NCBI GenBank assembly: GCA_032622095.1 | Contig: CP136066.1 | Coordinates: forward strand, 157,193,152-157,257,151 | Length of the DNA stretch: 64,000 nt | Direction: 5' to 3' | From: Siphonodentalium dalli | Lineage: Eukaryota > Mollusca > Scaphopoda > Gadilida > Siphonodentaliidae | Shown: piece after piece, positions 9,016-39,232 of the stretch | Position numbering within the stretch: the first letter of the stretch is position 1 | How the letters are laid out: every line of letters starts with the position of its first letter | Notes under the pieces: model-generated | Databases searched by the model: none | What the model saw: only the letters and a program-made list of their open reading frames with translations | Told to the model about the DNA's origin: nothing | Made by a program: the position numbers and the translations under genes

Positions 9016-9403
9016 CCAGCTATTTTAATGATATCTCACCTCAGGGCATGCCCTTCTGATAAAAAGCGCATTTTGTGCAGTTTCTTTGGTGGATTACATT
9101 ACAATAGAGATAAACGTAACCTGTTTCGTTGGATATTCAGGGATTCGAGCAGGAAAACAGTTTGTGAACGAGCTGGCTTGACAGATTACATTTATCTCCT
9201 AATTATAAAATGTCCTCAGGGTGATCGTTTATACTGGGCAATGGGCTTGACAAAGATTACAATATATACTAGTACTCTTGAGCTGAAAATTCATTAGATG
9301 TTTAAGCACAATATAAAGCACGACTTATATCCAACAAGGCCCGATCTATACATCTCATGGCTCACAGTTGGGGTTTACATGCATAAATATTAATATGACT
9401 TAC

Positions 9404-9552
9404 CTGTTGGATACCAAGATATTTTGAAGAAGCTTCTGATGCAAATATGATGTCGCCTTCTTTGGAAATCAACAACAAGAAGCCATCAAGAGCTTTAGGG
9501 TATAGGTATGCCAACTTGGTCTCAATGGAATCGGTTTCAAATGGCTGCTCAA
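9404..9552 (-). CDS. HIF1A: HIF-alpha exon 3: start of the PAS-A domain
   Basis: This exon encodes residues 148-197 of the predicted protein (first base of codon 148 comes from exon 2). The acceptor is TTTTTCATTTCAG ending at 9553 and the donor is GTAAGT at 9398-9403; the exon ends in phase 0. The peptide contains YPKALDGFLLLISKEGD followed by IIFASEASSKYLGIQQ. It matches the opening beta strands of HIF PAS-A, where vertebrates have a similar KALDGF...D.I..S....YMG.TQ pattern. PAS-A serves dimerisation with ARNT. The exon length (149 bp) and junction positions agree with what I recall of vertebrate HIF1A exon 3. The next exon (HPCDH motif) was not found in 1-9397. Confidence 0.9.
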
Positions 9553-9662
9553 CTGAAATGAAAAACAAATTAAGTTGTAACATCAAACGTTAGTCAAATG
9601 TGCCGTGCTTACTGGAGCTTCCTATAATAAGATAGTCTCAACAATCCAATTATCCCCAATAG

Positions 9663-19049: not shown

Positions 19050-19405
19050 TAAGGGCAGCCGACAACCAAGCTCATAACCATAACCTAATCAGACATCCAG
19101 GCTCATATCGATAACCTACTTTGACAAACAGACAACCAGGCTCATAACCATAGCCTATAAATGAGACATCCAGGCCCATAACCATTGCCTAATGAAACAC
19201 CCAGACTCATAATTATTGCCTAATGAGACATCCAGACCCATAACCATAGTATAATGAGACATCAAGGCTCATAACCATAGCCTAATGAGACATCCAGGCC
19301 AGTAGGCATAGCCATAGCCTAATGAGACATCCAGACTCATAACCATAGCCTATTGAGACAGCCAAGCTCATAACCATAGCCTAGTGAGACATCCAGGCTC
19401 ACAAC
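19050..19405 (+). repeat. Minisatellite, unit about 31-36 bp, about 10 copies
   Basis: Degenerate repeats of GAGACATCCAGGCTCATAAC followed by CATAGCCTAAT. Unit length and sequence vary, which suggests an old or rapidly evolving array. Confidence 0.7.
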
Positions 19406-22300: not shown

Positions 22301-24552
22301 ACGGAAGGGGTCTGGATATGTTTATGCTGCTGATTTTACATGTGGTCGGTTACCATTAAGGACCACAGTGGAAATAAGCAAACTTTGGCTTGCTTTCCTG
22401 TGCGCTCCTTGATGGCAATCGATGGCATGACTTGTCAGACGAGCGTATTCATATGTATATTTCTCTTCTACTACTCTATTTTCCTCTCTATCTTTCTATG
22501 TACGATGACAGTACTTGGCCAGCTGCATATATTGTCACATGCCAGTCTAAAGCCGGTCATACATGGCAGCAGTGTGTATATGCAGGTGGCGAAGAGCTGT
22601 TGTTACTCTTACTAGTATCTCTTAAGTAACATGACAGTCCTGTTGAGGGAGGAGGGTGGGATAGCACGGGTTGATTTTTCATGTTGTATCTATATATACA
22701 GGTACGAGTATCTATTTAGTAGTCATTACTAAGCTAGGTTTATTCACTATCTTGTCCCACTACAGAACTGTCAAGCTGCATTCTTGTTATATTTATATAT
22801 CTATACTTTTTATATTTATACTATATGAATGTCACACTCTGTGTTACTCTTTTGTATATATGCTTATGCTCATATGTCTGCAAATTTTGCATCTTTTAGC
22901 CATTCAAAAATTATCTATCTATCTATCTATCTATTTTTGTGCAGTAAATGGGGTAGTTGTGGAAATGCAAGATTATCGTTTGAAAAAAATACCGAAAATG
23001 GCGCGTTTGTTGTCACATACTGGTGCAGCGGATGAAGTGCTAAGGGAAAATTGACCACTTGAAGTTCAAATAGGCTTAACTCATCGCCGGCGGGACTTTT
23101 AGTTAATACTGTCGCATATGGAAAATAATTAGGTGTTTGTAACATATAGAAATCTCGATATTAGTCATTTCAGACCATAATAACATAGCATTATATATTA
23201 ACCCATCGAGAAATATGTCAAAATGACACACTATATTACACCCACCCCTATATAACTGCGTCCTCCCTGACACAGGCTGCATATAAAAAGTTTATCCATG
23301 TCTACTTAATGAGAGTATACAGTTCTGTCAAAATCGGGCGAACAATTTGGTCTATAAATCCCGTAGTGTGACACATTTAATATAGACCAAAACAATCAAC
23401 ACCTTTCAACTCAAAGATAGTTACATTTTAATTGCAAAAATGGTCCAAACATGAAAAGTTTATTTTTGCCGATATTTAAGTCAACTTTTTGAGAGAAAAG
23501 TCCAATATTTTTGGTGATGTCAGTGGTGACAATAGTAACAATTAACCATGGCACATCAGACATGTTAGTATTCAATGTACAGAAGGCAGAATAGCCAATT
23601 TTGTACATCATCCACAACTTGTAATCGATTGCAGGACACGCTGGGGCAATATTTATCATTTTCCATATTTTGGCAGCCATTTTGAGCCAAAGTAAGAATT
23701 TTGGTTCCAGTGAGTTGGAATATTCATAGGTATAATCATATGCATCACTTACATTACAAAGTTCTGTTCATTTCTTGTTAAAATATGACTATAATCCCAA
23801 TTGTGATTTTTTTGTGAAATTTTATACTGCGTTCTGTAAATTCGAATTTTTGAGGGAACGGAAGGGGCTAGGAACCCAAAAAATGCATATTTAATTGCCC
23901 CAATGATCAGTTACACAAAATACAAAATAAAGTCGCATTACTCAACCAGTTCCAAACAGCATGAATCGATCTAGAAGATATTTGTAAAAAAAAAATCATA
24001 TTTTCAACTTCCGGCAGCCATTTTGGTGGCCATCTTGGATGGTGAGTTTCAATTTTGCCCCAAAAAAATGACATTATGTCTTAGCTTCACGAAAATATAT
24101 ACATTTGTATACATTATACAAGATTTTCACCGCTATAATTTGAATAAACTGACTTAGGGTCTGGTCTGAAAAACGGCGGCCATGATGGACGCCATTTTGT
24201 CTGAAGTCTATACGGCCACTTTTTTTTCTTGTTCACATTGCTTAAAAGTTGAAGGACATAATAAGGAACAAAATGAGTTGGGAGAAGTTAAGTCCCAGGG
24301 GGTGCAAGGGTACCCATATTAGCTCCCGGACTAGTAGTACTATGACGTCGCCAGAAAATTCTTTCATTTTCGGTCGTCGGGTAGGTCAATAAAAACACTT
24401 TTTTCGCCAATTAAGCTACAAATTCACCACTGCTATCATGGATTTTCGTAATCTACACATATTTTACTACAAAATTAGACCGGATAGCACTTGTCCGTCA
24501 AAATGAGCAACATTTGTTATTTCTTGGGGTCGATCTCCTGGACTAATGTACA
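22301..24552. other. Intronic sequence, short repeats only
   Basis: A (CTAT)n microsatellite lies at 22914-22933. A stretch from 23690 to 24210 holds sequences like GCCATTTTGGTGGCCATCTTGG, related in style to the CAAGATGGC arrays. Several open frames (e.g. 22671-23054) are AT-rich and show no domain. Confidence 0.4.
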
Positions 24553-26532
24553 CAGGTTACCTAATTCTCTTTGAGTGGATATAAAACAAACTGCGCCTAT
24601 CAGGAATAAAATAAGCTTTCCCATCACGGGACCGCTTGTCACGGCCTCTTGTGCTTTGCACCTGACCCACCGAGCCACCAGGTGTCCACACCTTAGGTTT
24701 GTGGATATAGTTCCATGAGTTCACTGTTTTCAACGTTTCAATAACAAAGTTCAGTTTGATTTGTGACTGGGTGCACAAACCTATTACTAGTGTTTTATTT
24801 TAACCTGAACTGTGGCCACATTCAAAATTATTTTTGTTTCAGCTGACCCTACCGAAAATTTCAAGAATGGGTAAGTAAGTAGGTAATTAATTATTTTTTC
24901 AATTATAACTAATCACTGTGTAATAGCTGTTGAGATTAAATTTTATCTATTTATCTAAATATGATAAAAAGTCATGTAGCCAAAATCTTTGAAGCTATGT
25001 TAAAGAAAAAAACATGTTTTCAATAGATAATTTTAAATATTCTATTTATGTTTGTCATCAGATTGAAAATAAAACGAGAGGCCGATCACGATCGGCAGAT
25101 GTTTAACTCATACCTTGGCGACAGCAATTAGCTATTTTTATAAATTTTATAAATCCTTACACCAACCTTTTCATGAGTGCAAAAGTTTCAACAATTCACA
25201 CTTTATATAGTGATCGTGTGAAAAATATTTAGTTACAAGCCTTAAAATAAGTGGTCGGACACGGACAAATGTCCGACGCCGGATTCGCATTTTTATGGGT
25301 TGTCCGGCTCTGCTTTGAAACTGTCGGACATAATGTCCGATTGAAATATTGTCGTATTTTAAAGAAAATGTCACTGATAATGTGATATATTCCAAGATAA
25401 ATGGGAAAAGTGTGCATTGAAATAAAATGTATTCTATTGTCGAGTAGTTTTAATTATTTGTTTTGCCGAAATGAGAGTTTCTACAAAATAATGGAATAAA
25501 AAAAATACGGAACTCCGACTCGAGTTATAGCGGCATGGGACCCAGGTTACCTAATTCTCTTTGAGTGGATATAAAACAAACTGCGCTTATCAGGAATAAA
25601 ATAAGCTTTCCCATCACGGGACCGCTTGTCACGGCCTCTTGTGCTTTGCACCTGACCCACCGAGCCACCAGGTGTCAACACCTTAGGTTTGTGGATATAG
25701 TTCCATGAGTTCACTGTTTTCAACGTTTCAATAACAAAGTTCAGTTTGATTTGTGACTGGGTGCACAAACCTATTACTAGTGTTTTATTTTAACCTGAAC
25801 TGTGGCCACATTCAAAATTATTTTTGTTTCAGCTGACCCTACCGAAAATTTCAAGAATGGGTAAGTAAGTAGGTAATTAATTATTTTTTCAATTATAACT
25901 AATCACTGTGTAATAGCTGTTGAGATTAAATTTTATCTATTTATCTAAATATGATAAAAAGTCATGTAGCCAAAATCTTTGAAGCTATGTTAAAGAAAAA
26001 AACATGTTTTCAATAGATAATTTTAAATATTCTATTTATGTTTGTCATCAGATTGAAAATAAAACGAGAGGCCGATCACGATCGGCAGATGTTTAACTCA
26101 TACCTTGGCGACAGCAATTAGCTATTTTTATAAATTTTATAAATCCTTACACCAACCTTTTCATGAGTGCAAAAGTTTCAACAATTCACACTTTATATAG
26201 TGATCGTGTGAAAAATATTTAGTTACAAGCCTTAAAATAAGTGGTCGGACACGGACAAATGTCCGACGCCGGATTCGCATTTTTATGGGTTGTCCGGCTC
26301 TGCTTTGAAACTGTCGGACATAATGTCCGATTGAAATATTGTCGTATTTTAAAGAAAATGTCACTGATAATGTGATATATTCCAAGATAAATGGGAAAAG
26401 TGTGCTATGAAATAAAATGTATTCTATTGTCGAGTAGTTTTAATTATTTGTTTTGCCGAAATGTGAGTTTCTACAAAATAATGGAATAAAAAAAATACGG
26501 AACTCCGACTCGAGTTATAGCGGCATGGGACC
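24553..26532. repeat. 990-bp direct tandem duplication
   Basis: 24553-25542 and 25543-26532 are near-identical copies. I saw only a few differences: GCCTATC/GCTTATC, GTGTCCACA/GTGTCAACA, a small change at TGTGCATTGAA/TGTGCTATGAA, and ATGAGAGTT/ATGTGAGTT. CAGGT occurs at the start of each unit and again right after the second (26533-26537), as microhomology. The unit contains host sequence, the 5' end of a HINE and the first about 307 bp of a hAT element. Confidence 0.9.
25236..25542. mobile_element. Duplicated orphan 5' end of the hAT element
   Basis: This is the tandem-duplicated copy of the first 307 bp of the hAT element at 26226. It carries the same CAAGCCTTAAAATAA terminus and the left TSD TTTAGTTA (25228-25235), but it has no 3' end. 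Confidence 0.75.
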
Positions 26533-28689
26533 CAGGTCGGTAGTACGTTATATGTTTATTACAGACATGGTTCATCAGTATATTAATTATGTTTCCAAAA
26601 AACTTCCGTTGTACACACGAGTGAGTGACGCGATATATAAATGTGTATAGGCCATACTCGGCTCCGATTTAGGTATTCCTAATTTTTTATCAATCGTCAT
26701 TATTCCCACTTCCGGCTTTCCGCCGCGAGGTTCAAACATGAATAAAAAAATGAATCAAAGAAGCGAAAAATAGACACTAATCAAACTAAAACCACCTGTA
26801 ACAATAGAACATTACGTGCAACGACTGTATGTTGTTGGATCAGAAATGACCTCGCCGTCTATGAAGCTTCAGAATGGCTTAAATTTGAGGTCGACGGCAA
26901 CGGATTGGTCACTTTGCTGACCTGTTCCTACTGTATATCACAGAAAGACCAATTGAAACTTCGTCGAGAATATTCAGGAGCATGGATTTTATTTACTTTC
27001 ATCACTTCTTCCACTTGAAAAATTAAAGTTTCATATCTAATATATATCGTTGTCATTTATATTAATACAATTCAATAGACTACCAGTAGTACCAAAAAGA
27101 ACATCCATGGATTCAATCTAAAATAAGCCTTTGCTGCCTTTTTTGCAATCTCCAAATCCACCATTTTGGGTTGGAAACTTGGACAATGAGATGTGAAAGA
27201 TCTCAAAAGCAAATACATGTACATGTAGACGTAGTTGCATTCTTACACCACCATAAAGTACTCCATACATGTAAATACTAGTATTATTTAGCGACCGTCA
27301 GCAAAATGTAGCCAATAAATTACAATAACTACATGTAAGTTTAATTTACAGTCATCCACTAGCTAGTATCAAGCCAGGATCGTACTAAATTTGTACAGGT
27401 CTTAAATTGTAAACAAATATAAAAACTAATTAACTTTAGTCTTTGACATCTAACATATTCTATCCTGAGATTTCCTGACCCCCAAATGGTGGATATGGTG
27501 GTAGTATAAATGCTTCTATTAGTTATATTATATAACTTATATACAAGACAAGTATGTAGATGTTACTGTGACATAGTGACAAACTGTTACATGACTATCA
27601 TATGGATAGGCATACCCCCTAGGGGTGCAACTATTAATCGTATAATCTCCGTTATTTATTCCGGACGTCGGAAAGTGCCTGGTATTATTGAATACCGTGT
27701 TTGTTTTACAGTTTAATCTACAACCGAAGGTTTAACAACCTTTCATCGTGCATCAGAGAGAGTCTGACAACATGAGTATACGGGTACTTAGATGTTACTA
27801 GTACAGTCTATCACTTATCGTGTGGTGACTGCTAAATGAAACTCACTATTACTATCACAATTACTTAACTTGTTCTGAGTCTTGAAATTTTTGGGTGGGG
27901 GGCCACCTTTGTGATTGTTGTCCACTCTGGAAGTTTGCTGAAACTTATATAGTTTCTGTAACATTAGATTCCTTTTTTAGGAACCGCCGGCGGTCCGTCA
28001 TGCATTCCTATTCTTATATTGTTTGTATGTTTGGCTATTCATAACACTGAAATTAATGGTTAATTTCGTTCTAATGAACTCACAATTATTGTAACCTTGA
28101 CATCGCCAATAAATGTGCTGGTATAGGATACATTGTGGTCTTTAGTCATTACAGGTTGTTTATGGTGCACATTATTAACATAAAAATTACATCAGTCGAG
28201 TTTTTTAACCAACACCCAGCCAATAGGCCATATTACAGAATACGGTACTTCCACTGTTATTGATATTAGGTACGATTAATCGATTATAATCGATTATTGA
28301 TGACCGATTATCGATTATCGATTATCAAAATCAATAATCGTGGCACCTCTAATACCCCCACATGGTGCTAGTAACAGCACAGGGATCAGAGCAAATGAGG
28401 ATTTATGTAACCTTAGAATTGAGTGTGAAATTGGCAAGCATGACTAGCATGCTGTGGTCAGGTTGGGCAAATTTGCATTATTTATTGTAAAAAACTTCAA
28501 ATTGAGGAGAGGAACATAAATGGGCCATTATGGGGGATAATACAGGATAATACACCATTATTAGTTTCACTTGGCATTATTTTGGGTGATAAAAAAGACA
28601 TGTCAGGCGTACTTTTGAAATGTCAGACCATGTCCATTTGGTGCCTGACAAAATGTCAGACACTCGAATAAACATTATTTTAAGGCTTG
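26226..28689. mobile_element. hAT-type element hAT1, exact 15-bp TIR and 8-bp TSD
   Basis: The termini CAAGCCTTAAAATAA and TTATTTTAAGGCTTG are perfect inverted repeats. TTTAGTTA is duplicated at 26218-26225 and 28690-28697. Copy A of the host HINE (around 748) gives the empty site ATATTTAGTTATCACATTG. Subterminal TGTCCGAC/GTCGGACA repeats at the left and TGTCAGAC/TGCCTGACA repeats at the right are candidate transposase sites. A second hAT (27620-28351) is inside. No transposase was recognised. Confidence 0.85.
27620..28351. mobile_element. hAT-type element hAT2 nested in hAT1
   Basis: The left end TAGGGGTGCAACTATTAATC and right end AATAATCGTGGCACCTCTA are inverted (TAGRGGTGCMACKATTA). The TSD ATACCCCC is at 27612-27619 and 28352-28359. 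Right subterminal repeats ATCGATTATAATCGATTATT lie at 28273-28335. It is 732 bp with no transposase. Confidence 0.8.
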
Positions 28690-30187
28690 TTTAGTTATCA
28701 CATTGTGTCAACAGGATTGGTGGAGGATGTTAATATTTTTAAGCAAATAAACCAAGTGACCCTCACTATGCAGGTTAGGGGTGTGTTATCGTCAACTATG
28801 CCAAGAACTATAAACATAATCAATGGAAGTATTTGAGATATCAAATCGGATAGAATGGGGTTAATCTTACCCAAACTAATGAACTGATAAACACAAAATA
28901 ATCTAAAAAAGCATGTCATTGGATTTAGAAACCCATACAATAATTCAGTCTCAAGAATACCAGCACCATTAATATTATCCTGGAGCCCAAGTGCAATTGA
29001 GGGAATTTCAAAATAAGACATTTTCTCTATTATAAATGATGAATATTCAATTGGTGATTTATTGAAACCCTTACTGAACCTGGCTCAAAGTGAAAGGGAT
29101 AATATTATATCTGTCTATCGCATAATATGTGTCTATGGAATGGTTTAATTTTAATCCCAAATCCATGCAAATCAAAAGTGGATCACCATCAACCTGGACA
29201 TAAAATAGGAGAATGATCAAATGAAAAGCATCAAAACCATATGATGCGTGGAGAGGGTTAATCATTTTCAATGACATCATATCATGGAACTAAGGAATGT
29301 GTGGATTGATTTTTGTCTAAGATAAGACAACAGTGTCTGTAAACAACAATGTCTGTAAAACATCCCTACAAAGTAACAATGGACTATTCCAATTTATTAT
29401 TTTAGAATAGGTGTCATATGGTGTGTGCATTAACTAATGTAATGAACCTGTTTCAACAAAGGGGTTAACTTAATATTGCACAGAAAACAGAACTCCACCA
29501 GAGAGTCATTAATCACAGTTTGACATATGATATAAACAATTCCTGCCAGCCAGTGGTACCACTATCAGACTTTGTAGCATGTCATATCTAATGTCCATAG
29601 TGATAATTAACTCATTTCAATAACACACATGGTCTGTGGCATATGTTCTCTTCAAATTCCCAGCAGTAATTACTTGAATTATAAAAGGTCATTACTCTGT
29701 TAAAATATATCGGATCAAACCCATATTCGAACTCGATCTGTATTTAGGGGTGATAAATTAATATACTAAATTTGGTGTTGATCAGATGAAAAAAGTTTTG
29801 AGTCATAGCAGCTTGGGTGAATTCAAAGTAAACATAAGAGTTAAAAGGGTTAATTAAACAATACCAAAAACCATACAGATCAAGAACGTGCTAAGAAAAA
29901 CCAAGGTAAGAAATATGAGGCAGATCAGAAGAAATATGTTCAACATATTGCATTGGATAGCATGTGTGTAAAGGGTTAATTATTTTCTAAACCGATCAAC
30001 CAATCAATACCAAAAACTGAATTTTTTTATTTTTGAAAAAAGGGTCATAACTCCTTTAAAATAAATCGGATAAAACCCATATTCGAACTCGATCTGTATT
30101 TTGTTCTGTGAAAGTCACATACAAAATTTGGTTCCAATCAGATAAAAAATGTTTAAGTTATGACAGAATGCATGAATTATAAGTTGA

Positions 30188-31619: not shown

Positions 31620-32637
31620 AACAAAATCCATGAGAAGCCTGGAGAGGCCAATCAAATATTTTGAGTAGGGAGGTTTTTGTTTTAGGGTAGGTAGGGTCAG
31701 AGGAAACAATTTTGTTTATTATTTTGGCCTGAATATCGCTGCTACAGCACATTTGTTGGACTACAACTATCAACATAAAATAAATGACAATAGAAACTTT
31801 GGTGTGAACCACACATATATATATGTATGGCTTTTCATATGTTTGTTTTTATCACATCCATGTTGCACCCAGTTGCATCCATAATGTTTTCATAGTATAA
31901 AGGTCACACATGAGTCAGAAAAGGTAGTAAAATATTTTAGCAAACTGTGGCATTCTCTCATTACGAATGGAACTGAGACAGACATACTGATCAATTTTTT
32001 TCGGTGTCAGGCAACAGTAATTTAATAGCCTGGTTTATTAACCCCTCCTAAAACTTTTTCCTCTATATTGTAAAAAAAACTAGAGGTGTGACTGTCCCAA
32101 GGGGCCCCATGTTTTTAAAACACTAAGATGTTTCACATGTCAGTAAACATTTAGTTAAAATAATAAAATTACAGATTCCCATTGCAGGTGCAAACCCTTT
32201 AAAGCCCTAACCCTAATCCTAAACATATTGACTGAAAAATATAGGAATAAAAGCTCGGACAAAATTATGCATGTTGAGAAAATGTTCTGTTCTAAGTCGA
32301 AAAAGGGGGATAACTTTCATTTATTACTTTATAATCAATGTGACTTCTATATGGTGTTAAGTAAGCATTCTGTGATCTCAGGCACCTTCCTCGTATCTCA
32401 TATAGCTCTGAGTATCTGCTGTTTGCATGTTATTGATTTTAGACTGATTTAAATTTGGCTGAGTCACCCTGGTGGATGTTATTATAGTGTTATTATTTAT
32501 TTTTTTTATAATTTTTATAAGAGTTTAAAACAAATATATTAAATTGAGCAAGAAATTAATCTCAATTAAAATAAAAAATAAAAATTTGAAGAAAAAAAAC
32601 TGAACTTATAATCTCAACATTTCCTAAGGAAACTAAC
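31620..32637. other. Intronic sequence without recognised feature
   Basis: AT-rich, with short open frames only. GTAGGGAGG/GGTAGGTAGGGTCAG text near 31665-31695 recurs loosely at 33750-33765. Confidence 0.35.
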
Positions 32638-32752
32638 TACCTGTCAATGAGTATTATAACTACCTGTCAATGAGTATTATAACTACCTGTCAATGAGTAT
32701 TATAACTACCTGTCAATGAGTATTATAATTACCTGTCAATGAGTATTTAGTA
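32638..32752 (+). repeat. Minisatellite, 23-bp unit, about 5 copies
   Basis: CTACCTGTCAATGAGTATTA plus TAA is repeated head-to-tail with very little divergence. The CAATGAGTATTTAGTA text at its end resembles the inner end of family d TTAA elements, which may be its source. Confidence 0.8.
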
Positions 32753-33458: not shown

Positions 33459-33658
33459 CTTTAAGTCTGTCATCTTCCATTATTTTGTTGATTTTCAGGT
33501 AACTTATTGCAAGTCTCATCACAGAGGCTTTATCCAACTGAGATGATATGCCTTCAGGAATCGGCACTTCTTCATACAGATGACTGAAAATTTCGCTCTC
33601 TTTTCCTCGTCGACTTCGCGCTGCATCTCGAGATCGCTCTTTACGTTTTTCAGAATTC
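33459..33658 (-). CDS. HIF1A: HIF-alpha exon 2: bHLH domain
   Basis: This exon encodes residues 82-147, plus the last base of codon 81 and the first of 148. The acceptor is TTTCTATTTTCCAG (ending at 33659) and the donor GTGAGT (33453-33458). The basic region reads [18 protein letters not shown], followed by helix-loop-helix text with [19 protein letters not shown]. The RDAARSRR core and [13 protein letters not shown] are diagnostic of HIF-alpha/EPAS1/Sima rather than of ARNT, SIM or TRH-type proteins. HIF-alpha pairs with ARNT and binds RCGTG hypoxia response elements in the nucleus. Phase joins perfectly to exons 1 and 3. Confidence 0.95.
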
Positions 33659-33664
33659 CTGGAA

Positions 33665-34228
33665 AATAGAAACAATAGAGTGAAATAATGCTGCATTGGT
33701 CCTAAAAAAAAGATTGTATGTTTCCGCTAACAGAGTGAAAGAATTAGGGTAGGTAGGTAGGGAATTTTTTTTTTTTTATATATTTTTTATCCAGCTGCAG
33801 AAATATTGAACTACCTCGACTGAAGTGACATAAAATGCCAACTATTGTTGTGGGGAAAGTATTACTTGAACAACACAGTGGAAATATACAATAAGATTGA
33901 ATAAAAGACAAACTTGCTTTCTGCTTTAAGTGTGTGATTTGTTATTCACATACCGCATTTTCCTCATTTTGGCTATATTACTTCATTTACTTGGTACGAA
34001 ATTTATGTCACTAACATTTCATGAAAATGTTACCAATAATTCCGTCATTTATATACCGGTACCTGTAGTGTGACAACTACGTCCCATTATCTGGAGGCAG
34101 CCAACCCAGAATGCCAGGTTTGTGGAAACAGTAGTCACACCCCTACCATGTGTGGTACAAAACCTTGGAACTGTTTGATGTTGTGACAGGGAAGTTAATA
34201 GCATTGAAAAAACAGTGCAGGTAACATA
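33665..34228. other. Intronic sequence, T-rich tract
   Basis: A T-rich run (33769-33795) follows GGTAGGTAGGG. No feature of known type was recognised. Confidence 0.35.
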
Positions 34229-34439
34229 CAGTAATGCCCTAAGTAATTGACTCCTTAATAACCACAGCAGAATTATGGGTAACTTTTCAGGATATAGTCG
34301 GAAATATGGCTTGTTGCCATTCATAGCTCTCCCCGAGAGCTTTCCGATGAATGGTAACAAGCCATATTACTGACTAAATCCTGAAAAGTTACCCAAAATT
34401 CTGCTGTGGTTAAGGAGTCGATTACTTGGGGCATTACTG
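34229..34439. mobile_element. P palindrome MITE copy P7
   Basis: CAGTAATGCCCTAAGTAATT to GGGGCATTACTG, flanked by TA (34227-34228, 34440-34441). Full-length with small arm mismatches. Confidence 0.8.
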
Positions 34440-34593
34440 TATTTCTTAGTTAATACCTGTTCCATAATAAAGAATAAAGTAGTTCACTGCAGGTGAATGT
34501 CCCAACTCAAAGTTGCTGGATTTATGTGACTTTGTGAGCGATTTTGCTTTGCATCGCTTACAATCATGGAATTTAATTTAATTCTCCCAGATA

Positions 34594-34796
34594 CAGTAAT
34601 GCTCTAAGTAATCGACTTGTTAACCACAGCAGAATTATGGGTAACTTTTCAGGAAATATGGCTTGTTGCCATTCATTGGAAAGCTCTCCCTGAGAGCTTT
34701 CCGATGAATGGTAACAAGCCATATTTCCGACTAAATCCTGAAAAGTTACCCATAATTCTGCTGTGGTTAAGGGGTCGATTATTTAGAGCATTACTG
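34594..34796. mobile_element. P palindrome MITE copy P8
   Basis: CAGTAATGCTCTAAGTAATC to AGAGCATTACTG, flanked by TA. It lies 154 bp from P7. The left arm has a small deletion (TTTTCAGGAAATATGG). Confidence 0.8.
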
Positions 34797-34799
34797 TAA

Positions 34800-35328
34800 T
34801 TAAATCCATGTTTATTGCGACATCGGCTGAAAAGTCACCAAAAAGCATGCAATCTCGAGCTGGGACTACCCCCGATTGTGTATTGAGGAACAAATATTAA
34901 CAAAAAAATATATTCTCTGCCTTGTTTGTTCTATGTTATAAAGTTCCCCGTCAGGACAGGCCAGAATACCAAAAATTCCCAGGTTCTGTACTGGTGGAAT
35001 CTGATCTCAATGGGTGAAGGTAGAGCAGAGATTCATGGCATGATCTAGTGACTTGGGGAGGGGCATCTTTTCCTTAAAATGTGCCTCTGCTCCATATTTT
35101 TGTCCCAGTGAGAAGTGACCTCTCTGAATAATAGTATGTCGCAACAGCATGTTTAAAGTATATTTATTGATTATGTGTTCTTGCTCATGAGTTATAAATC
35201 GGCTCTCGTGTTGCAGAATACTAAATATTCATTGGAGCTCTATGTAGAATGGTGATGTTGGGGTGTACATCCATAGTCACTTCTCCCTAATAACCAAACA
35301 CGGAAAAGTGACTTCTCATAATTTGATA
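34800..35328. other. Intronic sequence without recognised feature
   Basis: No exon, palindrome or family match was noticed. Confidence 0.4.
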
Positions 35329-35329
35329 C

Positions 35330-35420
35330 CAGGCCTGTCATTTGCAGAATGAGGTCGCCAGAGGGTGAATTTAGTGTCGCTAACCCGCACAGTGGACTAT
35401 CATCACGAAATTCACCCTCT
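35330..35420. mobile_element. GAGGT-type MITE fragment M4 (one head)
   Basis: Only one palindromic head remains: GCAGAATGAGGTCGCCAGAG ... AAATTCACCCTCTGC. It abuts the repeat starting CATCTAACTCTTGACAC. Confidence 0.55.
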
Positions 35421-35554
35421 GCATCTAACTCTTGACACGTTATGGGTCAATTTACCCCATGTTTCAATTTTCACCGACCAGATTGCAACCATTTTAGTTA
35501 TATAATTAATTATTTTATTAAATTAATAATTAGTGCCCTAAAATAACAGTCTAA
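35421..35554. repeat. Dispersed repeat ATGGGTCAATTTACC, copy 1
   Basis: The text TATGGGTCAATTTACCCC ... GTTTCAATTTTCAC ... TTAGTGCCCT recurs at 37015-37125 and 61950-62060. The Harbinger remnant is inserted at its end. Confidence 0.6.
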
Positions 35555-36253
35555 AGCCGCTTACACATAGGCGCGGCGCGGCCGGTGCGACCGACGCGGC
35601 CGGACGTTCGAGTTTGTGCAATCATGAAGCACGGGACCTTTACACATTGGCGCGGCGCGGCCAATCGACGGGCGGCGACATTTTTAATGAGCGGCGCGAT
35701 TATTTTCAATGGAACTGTGAGCCATTTTGCAGAGCGATCGCGCGGCGAATCACTGTCAGATCAAAGCATTCCACACATATTCATCGGGTCATGTAGCACT
35801 ACCTCAAATTTAAGGGAAATCCCCAAAAAATCAATTGGCTTCCGCGCCCTGTATTCGTTCTTTATATCATCTTCGATGAAGAAAAGTATCCGTGCGAACT
35901 ATTCCTTTGGTGTTCTAAAGTATTGTATAAATTTGTCCCCATCTGAATAGAGTTCACGGTATAAATTATGATTAAATACACCATGTAAATATCTCTTCTT
36001 ATTAATTGGGTGTACCAAAAACCTTCTATTTCTCTTCTTTTTCCGTTGTCGATACAAATATGCCAGTGCTATTATAACAAGTGTGTCATCAGACACTGCC
36101 TCCGTTCTAAAATCATGTTATGAAACACAATACTTCGGGCGTTTATAATTATTCTGCCGCTACCATGTGAAAGCGCACACTCACGCGGCGAAGACAAAAA
36201 GTTTATTCGCTAGATAAACGCGTCGGTCGCGCCGCGCCCATGTGTAACCAGCT
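35555..36253. mobile_element. PIF/Harbinger element remnant, 3-bp TSD TAA
   Basis: The ends AGCCGCTTACACATAGGCG and CGCCCATGTGTAACCAGCT are inverted and continue into GC-rich CGGCGCGGCC/GGTCGCGCCGCG arms. TAA is duplicated at 35552-35554 and 36254-36256, as expected for Harbinger. The GC-rich ends contrast with the AT-rich host. A HARBI1-like ORF fragment lies at 35899-36096 on the minus strand. Confidence 0.8.
35899..36096 (-). pseudogene. Truncated HARBI1-like transposase N-terminus
   Basis: A 65-codon frame containing KKKRNRRFLVHPINKKR followed by HNLYRELYSDGDKFIQYFR. Harbinger/HARBI1-like nucleases of animals begin with this RRFWVHP-...-HNLYREL-...-KFFQYFRM pattern before the DDE domain. 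The DDE nuclease is missing: the frame ends after FRTPKE and the element ends nearby. It is non-functional as a transposase. Confidence 0.7.
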
Positions 36254-36256
36254 TAA

Positions 36257-36583
36257 CACATCGATCCTGATTCCATTGACGGCATGTATAAACATGATGC
36301 AACATGCATGTAACCTCTGACTAATACTCTTCCAGTCACAATGGTTTTACCACCAATTTTCCCGACATATTTCTGGACTGATAATAAACGCTCTTTATTG
36401 ATCATATAGTTTATTTATCCCCATTTAAGTCATCTGCGGTCAAACTTCAACATCAAACTTCAAAGATGCCCATCCCATGGCATTCCTCTGGTAAGGTGAG
36501 TGGTGACACATATGTACCAATATTCCTACACATCTTCTAAGCTGATAGGGAATGCTCTTTATTGCTCATATTTGCCCCTTTAA
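36257..36583. repeat. Dispersed repeat related to 61300-61930
   Basis: CACAATGGTTTTACCACCAA and AAACGCTCTTTATTGATCAT occur here. The first matches 61540-61560 in reverse complement, and the second matches 61880-61900 and (reverse) 61305-61325. It is a moderately divergent copy with no coding content. Confidence 0.5.
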
Positions 36584-36587
36584 TTAA

Positions 36588-36979
36588 CCCTTTACCCAAC
36601 AAACTGGCCAAAACCGGCCAAATAAAGCTTCAACAGCCTGAAATATCTTCGGTCTGTCTCAATAGAACCATACAAATATGGATATCATTGGAACCGGCTC
36701 CTTGACCACATTGTGATAGTTACAGTTATGCCCTGTGCCAATGCATTCTCTTATATATGCGAGTCGACCATAGGTCGCCTCGCATATATAAGAGAATGCA
36801 TTGGCCTAAAAAAAATCTTTTTTTAACACTTTTTACCATTTTTTCTTACATTCTTTAACAATTTTATAATTTTTAATGTGTTAAGCCAATGCATTCTCTT
36901 ATATATGCGAGGCGACCTATGGTCGACTCGCATATATAAGAGAATGCATTGGCACAGGGCCGTTCTGTTGGGTAAAGGG
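36588..36979. mobile_element. TTAA-flanked MITE, family b (ACCCAACA ends)
   Basis: The inverted ends CCCTTTACCCAACA and TGTTGGGTAAAGGG are flanked by TTAA (36584-36587, 36980-36983). The core is the same double hairpin as in family a (GCCAATGCATTCTCTTATAT ... twice), but the outer 140 bp on the left and 20 bp on the right are unrelated to family a. The hairpin tip is GTCGACCATAGGTCGCC, not GTCTCCCATAGGGAGCC. Confidence 0.75.
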
Positions 36980-36983
36980 TTAA

Positions 36984-37260
36984 GTCATCTGACATCAACA
37001 GCATCTAACTCTTGACACTCTATGGGTCAATTTACCCCCATGTTTCAATTTTCACTGACCAGATTGCAACCTTTTTTTTTATATAAATAATTATTTTATT
37101 TTATTAATAATTAGTGCCCTTTTAAGACATCTGTCGTCAATGGAACTTATCTAATAAGATTATCCGGGTCAAATTAACTCTTTACACAAATTTTTCAGCT
37201 CTGCCATACAGTAAACATATTGGTCTCACACTATCTAACTCAAACAGTACCATATTAATT
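36984..37260. repeat. Dispersed repeat ATGGGTCAATTTACC, copy 2
   Basis: It matches 35421-35554 and 61931-62060 and continues with CTTTTAAGACATCTG. Nothing coding was seen. Confidence 0.55.
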
Positions 37261-37476
37261 AATAATCTATACTAATAAAAATAAATTTTGTTTGTTTGTT
37301 TGTCAGGCTATGGGAAACAAAACGGCTGGAACCTCGGAGCTGAAAATGTGTACACAGGGATCAATTGACCTGGGTAATGTCATGGGATATGTGCCGTTGA
37401 CAAGGGTTTTCTTGTGTTTTAATACCAAGAAACTAATATCAGACGACTTAAGTGCCACCGCTGTTGTTGCAATTAA

Positions 37477-37696
37477 CCCTTTAATGGATGGAGCTTCCTG
37501 AAATTTTGCGAAAACCCTGTGCCAATGCATTCTCTTATATATGAGTCTCCCATAGGAAGCCTCACGTATATAAGAGAATAATTAGCCTAACAATATTTAC
37601 ATTAACCGTGTAAGCCAGTGCATTCACTTATATAGGCAAGGCTCCCTATGAGAGACTCTCATATACCAGTATAAGAGAATGCACTGGCACAGGATA
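37477..37696. mobile_element. TTAA-type MITE, family a, copy 4 (3' truncated)
   Basis: It begins after TTAA (37473-37476) with CCCTTTAATGGATGGAGC and contains two internal hairpins. The end is lost where it abuts a GAGGT-type fragment at about 37697. Confidence 0.65.
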
Positions 37697-37698
37697 TA

Positions 37699-37779
37699 AA
37701 ATGCGGGATAGCATCACAAAATTCACACTCTGGGGGTCCTCATTCTGCAAATGACAGGCATGCTAAGTTCAGGCTTGTT
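37699..37779. mobile_element. GAGGT-type MITE fragment M5 (right head)
   Basis: It holds the right half-head (GCGGGATAGCATCACAAAAT) followed by the terminus ATGCTAAGTTCAGGCTTG. Confidence 0.55.
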
Positions 37780-37990
37780 AATTAAGAGAGTTCTCAATTT
37801 TTGTGTTCATCATTCATATTTTACGGCTATGATTACTTGTAGTTTTTCATATTTTATATGGTGGAATATTATCCATTTTTCGGAGAGCTACAGCGTATTT
37901 ACCAGTGAATGTATTCCATCAAGATAAATGAATTGTAAATTTTTAACAACATATAGGACTTAGATTTACAATTGTAATGTAAAATTTATA

Positions 37991-38062
37991 TCTCGAGTCA
38001 TTAAAGATACTCAATCCGATTAAACACCACATCGGATTGAGTACCTTTAATGACTCGAGAAA
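37991..38062. repeat. 30-bp-stem hairpin with TTAA inside each arm
   Basis: TCTCGAGTCATTAAAG and TACTCAATCCGAT are mirrored by ATCGGATTGAGTA and CTTTAATGACTCGAGA around the loop TAAACACCAC. It contains the sequence AGATACTCAATCCGAT between TTAA sites. Confidence 0.7.
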
Positions 38063-38492
38063 TAAATTTTGATTACTCTTTCTTTGGCTTCGGGGGTAAA
38101 AAATATTTTATTCGAGTCCAGGAACCTACCCATCAATGCTCAGAGTGATCAGATATCGATTTTTGAAGTTTGTTATTTCAATTGTTTGTGGCCCAGAAAC
38201 ACGCCATCAAAAGGATGGTCTCGGTCAAAATTGCGGATGAAGATGGATAACTCTAAAAAACAAGTGGTAATATGGCAAAATTTCATGAATACTCGAGTGA
38301 TAATACGGCGATATTTCATTGAACAAAATGTTCATAAATAACACGTTTTGGGAAATTTGATACCACAATTGACAGTGGTTAGCATTATTTTTAGGCAATT
38401 AATCGATTCTGATAACTAAAGCGTATTTTGAAGAAATGTTGTTGTTGTTGTATCTTGATTATATGGGGACCCTCTGATCGGATTGAGTACCT
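38005..38492. mobile_element. Possible TTAA-flanked element, family g
   Basis: AGATACTCAATCCGAT after TTAA (38001-38004) is inverted relative to ATCGGATTGAGTACCT before TTAA (38493-38496). The interior has no recognised ORF. It lies about 95 bp from HIF exon 1 in intron 1. The nearer inverted copy at 38031 leaves an alternative 48-bp mini-element. Confidence 0.45.
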
Positions 38493-38590
38493 TTAAATTG
38501 AAATATTAATAAAGCATGTGAAAAAAAAAAATACATGTGTATAAAAGACGAGGGAAAAAAAAAGAAGATATTTCTCAAGTTTACACTCAC

Positions 38591-38832
38591 TTGCAGTAAT
38601 CGAAGGATAACTCTTGACTTTGTTGTCCATAATCCATTTTTTTTGGGTTATAATCCAATTTCGGGTTATAATCCAATTTCGGAGGACTACTAGTACATTC
38701 CATTTTGGGAGGACTGCAGTCCATTCTATGTGGACTGTAGTCCAACCTCTGAGGGCTATAGTCCATCCTTTGAGGATGATACCCCATGGTATTGCACCTC
38801 CTCCCAGAGTAGAGTCCATAATCAAACAACAT
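38591..38832 (-). CDS. HIF1A: HIF-alpha exon 1: start codon and repeat-rich N-terminus
   Basis: The ATG is at 38830-38832 and is the first in-frame ATG after an in-frame TAG (38902-38904). The exon ends at donor GTGAGT after two bases of codon 81; exon 2 supplies the third, giving Lys. Eighty residues precede the bHLH exon. They form imperfect heptads of type [ML]-D-[YC]-[SN]-P-x-[RK]: HPQRMDYSPQRLDYSPHRMD, then SPPK and NPK variants up to KKMDYG. In DNA these are 21-bp repeats at about 38680-38790. Vertebrate HIF-1alpha has only a short N-terminal tail here. The CTTCAG at 38862-38867 could be an acceptor of an untranslated first exon. Phase continuity makes it part of this gene; the function of the repeats is unknown. 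Confidence 0.8.
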
Positions 38833-38979
38833 CACCGAGGTGTCATCAGTAAGAACAGTGGAGGAACTGAAGACATGAGAGCAATGGCACAGATGAAATA
38901 CCTATACACAGGGCATGGCTCAGCTGTGGTAGGGCCACATTCATTTATAGATTTGTTTCACCAGGTGTTTAGCAGCAAT
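38833..38979 (-). promoter_or_regulatory. Presumed 5' UTR/upstream segment of HIF-alpha
   Basis: This segment upstream of the start codon has no clear TATA box or RCGTG hypoxia element that I could see. The part 38862-38982 is duplicated, in pieces, at 40030-40066 and 41333-41420. The transcription start is not determinable from sequence. Confidence 0.35.
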
Positions 38980-39232
38980 CAAGCCTTGAATAGGGTGTCT
39001 GTCATTTGCAGAATGAGGTTCCCAGAGGGTGAATTTAGTGATGCTACCCCGTATAGTGGGCTAGCATCACCAAATTCACCCTCTGGGAACCTCATTCTGC
39101 TGAGGTGTAAGCTGAATGAGGTCCCCAGAGGGTGAATTTGGTGATGCTAGCCCGCTATGCGGGGTAGCATCACTAAATTCACCCTCTGGGGACCTCATTC
39201 TGCAAATGACAGGCACACTATTTCAAGGCTTA
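38980..39232. mobile_element. GAGGT-type hAT MITE, copy M6
   Basis: It runs from CAAGCCTTGAATAGGGTGTC to TTTCAAGGCTTA. It has two adjacent palindromic heads (39010-39100, 39116-39203) and no middle block. GCAGCAAT (38972-38979) and GCAGCTAT (39233-39240) form an 8-bp imperfect TSD. The related host copy at 41402-41414 (AGCAGCAATGGATG) is the empty site. It lies about 150 bp upstream of the HIF start codon. Confidence 0.75.

Follow-up and report, generated by a model that had tools for sequence, protein, structure and literature searches.

Among the oxygen-response factors of animals HIF-alpha is the central one, and most discussion of it concerns the C-terminal half, where oxygen is sensed. 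A stretch of genomic DNA from the scaphopod Siphonodentalium dalli (64,000 nucleotides of contig CP136066.1, hereafter the window, with positions counted from its first letter) raises a question about the opposite end of the protein: does a stop-free segment that carries an array of 21-bp repeats truly serve a HIF-alpha gene as its first coding exon and, if so, what might a repeat-built arm do in front of the DNA-binding domain? We consider it reasonably probable that the segment is a genuine HIF-alpha first coding exon, or one of them, that its repeats encode an arm maintained by selection, and that this arm may serve as a multisite target of proline-directed kinases through which HIF is tuned.

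The preliminary description of this DNA assigned the gene to HIF-alpha, and database comparisons of the second and third exons agree. Exon 2 scores 86.3 bits for Pfam family PF23171 (bHLH_HIF1A), whose cut-off is 27, as expected of a HIF-type bHLH domain. Its best match in PDB, obtained with a query that took in 35 bases of the preceding intron and 14 of the following one, is HIF-1alpha (E 3.3e-20; 19 sequences at E<=0.01), followed in order by HIF-2alpha (1.9e-18), HIF-3alpha (3.9e-15), NPAS3 (1.7e-14) and NPAS1 (9.4e-13), with AhR-type proteins and one BMAL1 as the lowest matches. Exon 3, queried as 9365-9589, has the PAS-A domain of HIF-2alpha as its best PDB match (E 2.1e-6), then HIF-1alpha and HIF-3alpha (nine sequences); this short exon matches no Pfam family at E<=1. 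Judged by these matches, the gene is of the HIF-alpha type (bHLH-PAS class I), either the canonical gene or a paralogue like the HIF-alpha-like gene of oyster. No PAS-B, NODD/CODD or CAD was found in the window, where the minus strand below 9400 was scanned with 13 PAS-type patterns without result, and these later HIF-alpha domains probably lie outside the window end. Relatives of exon 2 confirmed in viral-contig and genome-contig collections, which are not animal collections, numbered zero; seven other open reading frames of the window matched no Pfam family over the cut-off, and no Rfam family reached its gathering score anywhere in the window.

The exon in question was proposed to splice in phase to the bHLH exon, and the gene structure (Table 1) supports this. 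The frame from the first ATG to the end of the exon is free of stops, intron 1 has GT-AG ends, and the acceptor of exon 2, TTTTCCAG/G at 33658, completes a lysine codon split as AA/G. Exon 2, ending in phase 1, continues in frame into exon 3, whose own end is in phase 0 at a CAG/GTAAGT donor, and the three exons joined contain no stop. Going by the human sequence and the PDB alignment, we take the human and the present exon 1/2 junctions to lie about one residue apart at most. At the exon 1/2 boundary of human HIF1A, insertion of the three bases TAG is described as changing Lys to Asn and adding an Arg (PMC6540211), so that the human lysine codon would likewise be split after its second base (AA/G or AA/A).

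Table 1. Features of the HIF-alpha locus of S. dalli, in window coordinates; a slash marks an exon/intron boundary
Feature	Position	Strand	Remarks
Upstream TATAAA box-like hexamer	38944-38949	minus	about 117 bp upstream of first ATG; consensus match only
Upstream ORF	38832-38876	minus	14 codons (MSSVPPLFLLMTPR, then stop); stop overlaps first main ATG as TGATG
Putative HIF-alpha first coding exon	38591-38832	minus	ATG at 38832; 242 nt = 80 codons + AA; donor CAA/GTGAGT
Second in-frame ATG	38785-38787	minus	context ACCATGG; exactly at first heptad (MGYHPQR...)
Repeat array U1-U7	38638-38787	minus	self-match at lag 21; TRF rows within 38629-38744
U1	38767-38787	minus	MGYHPQR
U2	38746-38766	minus	MDYSPQR
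U3	38725-38745	minus	LDYSPHR
U4	38704-38724	minus	MDCSPPK
U5	38677-38703	minus	27 bp, MECTSSPPK
U6	38659-38676	minus	18 bp, LDYNPK
U7	38638-38658	minus	LDYNPKK
Intron 1	33659-38590	minus	4932 bp, GT-AG
Exon 2, HIF-alpha bHLH DNA-binding domain	33459-33658	minus	Pfam PF23171 and PDB matches
Intron 2	9553-33458	minus	23,906 bp, GT-AG, repeat-rich
Exon 3, PAS-A start	9404-9552	minus	PDB matches; splice sites; open join with exon 2
Antisense stop-to-stop ORF	38611-39132	plus	174 codons; open frame

The array was described as encoding about seven heptad-like units, and the count stands: with unit limits counted directly on the sequence, seven units resembling [ML]-D-[YC]-[SN]-P-x-[RK] are found by a relaxed pattern and five by the strict pattern [ML]D[YC][SN]P, against maxima of two and one, respectively, in 20,000 shuffles of the peptide. 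At the DNA level the self-match is greatest at lag 21 (0.434), whereas 1000 dinucleotide shuffles, scored at lags of 1 to 59, all stayed below that value. One unit of nine residues (U5) and one of six (U6) are not heptads, and the 21-bp period therefore has 27-bp and 18-bp exceptions; after U7 comes a decayed unit, MDYGQQS.

A further expectation, that the exon behaves as a minisatellite differing in length between individuals, finds little support in the array itself. TRF rows comprise 2.1-2.6 copies at 75-95% match, and the mean pairwise difference between units is 35%; the low copy number and match indicate an array that is mostly old and point-diverged, in which near-identity is confined to the 18-bp pair U6/U7, the one part that appears recent. 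Strong length polymorphism is accordingly not expected of so old and diverged an array, and a hypervariable minisatellite, with its many near-identical copies, is rejected in the main. A transposon origin of the unit was rejected as well: a search of the window for the consensus-like unit at up to six mismatches returned U1-U4 and a single six-mismatch site at 28135 on the plus strand, U5-U7 being too diverged for detection.

Other repeats occur in the window. A 23-bp tandem repeat in intron 2 (32634-32747; 5.0 copies, 98% match) is more likely to be a length-variable locus than the exon array. The same intron holds a 998-bp direct repeat (24550-26537), whose copies are 99.4% identical and overlap by 8 bp, and which is either a very recent tandem duplication or an assembly artefact. 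A dispersed pair at 747-1922 and 28690-30018, alike in two pieces of 94% and 85% identity, perhaps represents a transposon family, and a 31-bp tandem repeat lies at 19061-19405 (10.6 copies, 76% match), mixed with periods of 99 bp and 37 bp.

Evidence on whether the exon is coding comes from the differences between the repeat copies themselves. In the splicing frame, comparison of unit with unit gives pS 0.93 and pN 0.24, and the resulting pN/pS of 0.25 is the lowest among the six frames inspected (0.47, 0.55, 0.88, 2.64 and 3.50 in the other five), a ratio that derives from seven short units aligned by hand, with two U5 codons omitted and pS near saturation, and that exchange between copies could distort. 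Across seven choices of units the ratio stays between 0.18 and 0.28. Differences at the first, second and third codon positions amount to 23, 48 and 76, each of 141, and the excess at third positions has p 0.016 by column permutation (0.013-0.021 over five alignment choices). Neutral simulations, run on star trees and on Yule trees and either allowing or excluding stops, produced a pN/pS as low as that observed in one of 15,539 accepted runs, acceptance meaning similar total divergence, when the four settings were pooled (0/7463, 0/2479, 1/4115 and 0/1482). In the aligned units, three further frames are also free of stops. The divergence of the copies thus argues for a peptide under selection, in the very frame that is spliced to the bHLH exon. 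The predominance of synonymous change between copies also speaks for translation of the exon in the course of its evolution, with which an additional alternative first exon would be compatible.

The exon also stands out among its possible competitors. In the 30.2 kb that precede exon 2, the minus strand contains 22 candidates for a first exon that could be spliced to it in phase, counted as stretches from an ATG to a donor scoring at least 5 of 7, a list that misses poorer donors and exons beyond the window. The repeat-bearing exon is the longest (80 codons; the next have 53 and 39) and is one of two with a donor score of 6, the other being a candidate of 22 codons at 50439-50372. An antisense gene on the plus strand was considered and set aside: all three reverse frames exceed the sense pN/pS (0.47, 0.55 and 3.5; stops are lacking in two), and the portion of the antisense open reading frame beyond the exon enters an inverted-repeat element.

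Translation of the exon may begin at either of two codons. The first ATG has the context GTG-ATG-T; the context of the second is presumably a strong one for initiation, and we judge this codon at least as likely as the first to be the true start. The short upstream open reading frame may be due to chance. An alternative view of the upstream region would place a 5' untranslated exon further upstream. Two adjacent inverted-repeat elements occupy 39011-39200, beside the likely promoter and some 180 bp ahead of the first ATG; an arm of these elements (GAATGAGGTCCCCAGAGGGTGAATTT) has 25 matches in the window, on both strands, at up to four mismatches. One inverted-repeat element of the window had no match in the genome-contig and viral-contig collections, and a second had none in the viral-contig collection.

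The composition of the arm suggests how it might act. S/T-P-x-K/R is the full CDK-type consensus, and the 80 residues contain four S-P-x-[RK] sites (SPQR, SPHR, SPPK and SPPK), clustered as in CDK substrates; the many possible S-P phosphorylation sites foreseen in the preliminary description thus come to four, all of this type. The S-P site varies, however: in three of the seven units another residue stands before proline, namely His in U1 and Asn in both U6 and U7. With ten K/R and ten D/E, the arm has a net charge of zero.

A likeness to the C-terminal domain (CTD) of RNA polymerase II, suggested by the Tyr-Ser-Pro spacing, does not extend far. The CTD heptad is YSPTSPS, with which the S. 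dalli units share a period of seven and the Y-S-P triplet; unlike it, they lack a second S-P, differ at the other residues and stand at the N-terminus rather than the C-terminus. Exon 1 matched no Pfam family at E<=1 and no PDB sequence at E<=10. With the YSP triplet alone common to both by eye, a relation to the CTD was rejected, and the sequence appears to be better read as a probably disordered arm of zero net charge that bears four CDK-type sites.

Under the explanation that we favour, an old tandem duplication of the 21-bp unit would have produced an arm of about 65-80 residues before the bHLH domain, after which selection would have acted on the peptide and not on the DNA. The arm, presumably disordered and neutral at rest, could then be phosphorylated by proline-directed kinases of the CDK/MAPK class at several of its four putative S-P-x-[RK] sites. 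Once phosphorylated, it would place negative charge beside the basic segment that contacts DNA and serves nuclear localisation, and such a charge switch might tune HIF DNA binding or nuclear entry independently of oxygen. The basic domain of HIF-alpha is described as having an N-terminal extension, lacking in SIM1, that touches the DNA on the flank of the core site (PMC12774657). In HIF-1alpha the N-terminal nuclear localisation signal is given as residues 17-33, and CDK1 is able to phosphorylate S668, far from the N-terminus (PMC4763087). A bolder version, in which the number of repeats and their S-P content set how far HIF binding is damped or biased by MAP kinases or those of the cell cycle, strikes us as unlikely; if it were true, evolution could adjust the hypoxia response by duplicating the 21-bp unit, independently of the VHL/PHD route.

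Several other explanations of the exon were weighed, and the probabilities assigned to them and to the favoured explanation are not mutually exclusive. The exon may be real and translated and its arm a passive, lineage-specific spacer, loosely kept in composition and with no regulatory role. Such a spacer would fit the variable length of the units (18, 21 and 27 bp), the loss of serine before proline from three of the seven, and the differences among HIF-alpha isoforms at the N-terminus described for human and oyster (PMC6540211, PMC5096685), but the synonymous bias between copies is stronger than a free spacer should give; we hold this reading possible, with some doubt. Much the same tentative standing belongs to the proposal that the gene has several alternative first exons, this one being specific to a tissue or to stress, and that the main form starts elsewhere and has a short tail, which would be compatible with the kinase-target explanation. 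Alternative first exons and starts have been reported for HIF-alpha, so a different main start is possible for the S. dalli gene: the oyster HIF-alpha-like gene is described with four isoforms that have alternative 5' regions and starts (PMC5096685), and human HIF1A with an alternative, longer N-terminus (PMC6540211). The 21 further in-phase candidates in 30 kb offer room for such exons, and that at 50439-50372 equals the donor score of the repeat-bearing exon, although the remaining candidates are shorter, at 53 codons and fewer.

Two further explanations are given little weight. It is quite improbable that the exon acts at the RNA level, the folded array and the overlapping upstream open reading frame together regulating translation of HIF-alpha. 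The exon RNA does fold better than all of 200 shuffles (z -3.0), near-palindromic 12-mers (GGACTNNAGTCC) occur in two units, and the upstream stop overlaps the start as TGATG; folding scores, however, may be inflated by repeats, and it is mainly at synonymous sites that the copies have changed, although an RNA function should restrain those sites too. That the frame is open by chance, in a non-coding minisatellite within intron or promoter DNA, is about as improbable. The window is very repeat-rich, a match of phase alone has a chance of one in three, and the aligned units have three other stop-free frames, but the pN/pS of 0.25 falls in precisely the splicing frame, neutral simulations matched it in one of 15,539 runs, and the exon has a good donor and is the longest candidate. 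Should the exon prove to be untranscribed, the locus would be a caution against taking repeats for exons.

Comparison with known systems places the favoured explanation, a selected repeat arm on HIF-alpha, in context. The gene resembles vertebrate HIF-1alpha and HIF-2alpha (EPAS1) in its bHLH and PAS-A matches and, with the human junction deduced as above, in a lysine codon split after its second base at the exon 1/2 boundary. The main vertebrate HIF-alpha form has a short N-terminal tail, with about 11 residues before the split lysine in human HIF against 80 in the S. dalli exon; no such repeats are known from the N-terminal arm of vertebrates or from a 24-residue extension found in human. 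The contrast with a short vertebrate tail drawn in the preliminary description thus stands for the main form and fails for one human HIF-1alpha isoform, which is reported to have 24 additional N-terminal residues (PMC6540211); that longer N-terminus arises from an alternative start and is shorter than the S. dalli arm.

Among the matches listed in the open-access literature searched, the coverage of which is partial, there was no report of a repeat-built HIF-alpha arm, and the sole match to the unit peptides consisted of three occurrences of one peptide under a title on irritable bowel syndrome. The only mollusc HIF cloning paper noticed among the matches listed concerns oyster CgHIFalpha-like, like the present gene an invertebrate HIF-alpha-type bHLH-PAS gene, with isoforms that have several 5' ends and start sites (PMC5096685). 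Compared by description, the oyster isoforms differ from the S. dalli arm in that they vary by 5-7 residues or by loss of the bHLH domain; the word 'repeat' has no occurrence in the main text of that paper (PMC5096685). Longer or alternative N-termini of HIF-alpha are thus already known from human and oyster.

The closest analogy in design may be found in sperm histone H2B, whose N-termini are described as carrying repeated SPK(K/R) motifs (PMC9903204), that is, repeated S-P in an extended N-terminus beside a DNA-binding fold. The sperm motif is S-P-basic-basic, whereas the S. dalli arm has S-P-x-basic, most of its units include an acidic residue, and its net charge is zero. What distinguishes this locus is a repeat-built, selected-looking arm on HIF-alpha, encoded by a putative first exon; if the favoured explanation is true, a lineage whose HIF N-terminus was extended by selected repeats with kinase sites would provide a natural experiment on the N-terminal arm of HIF.
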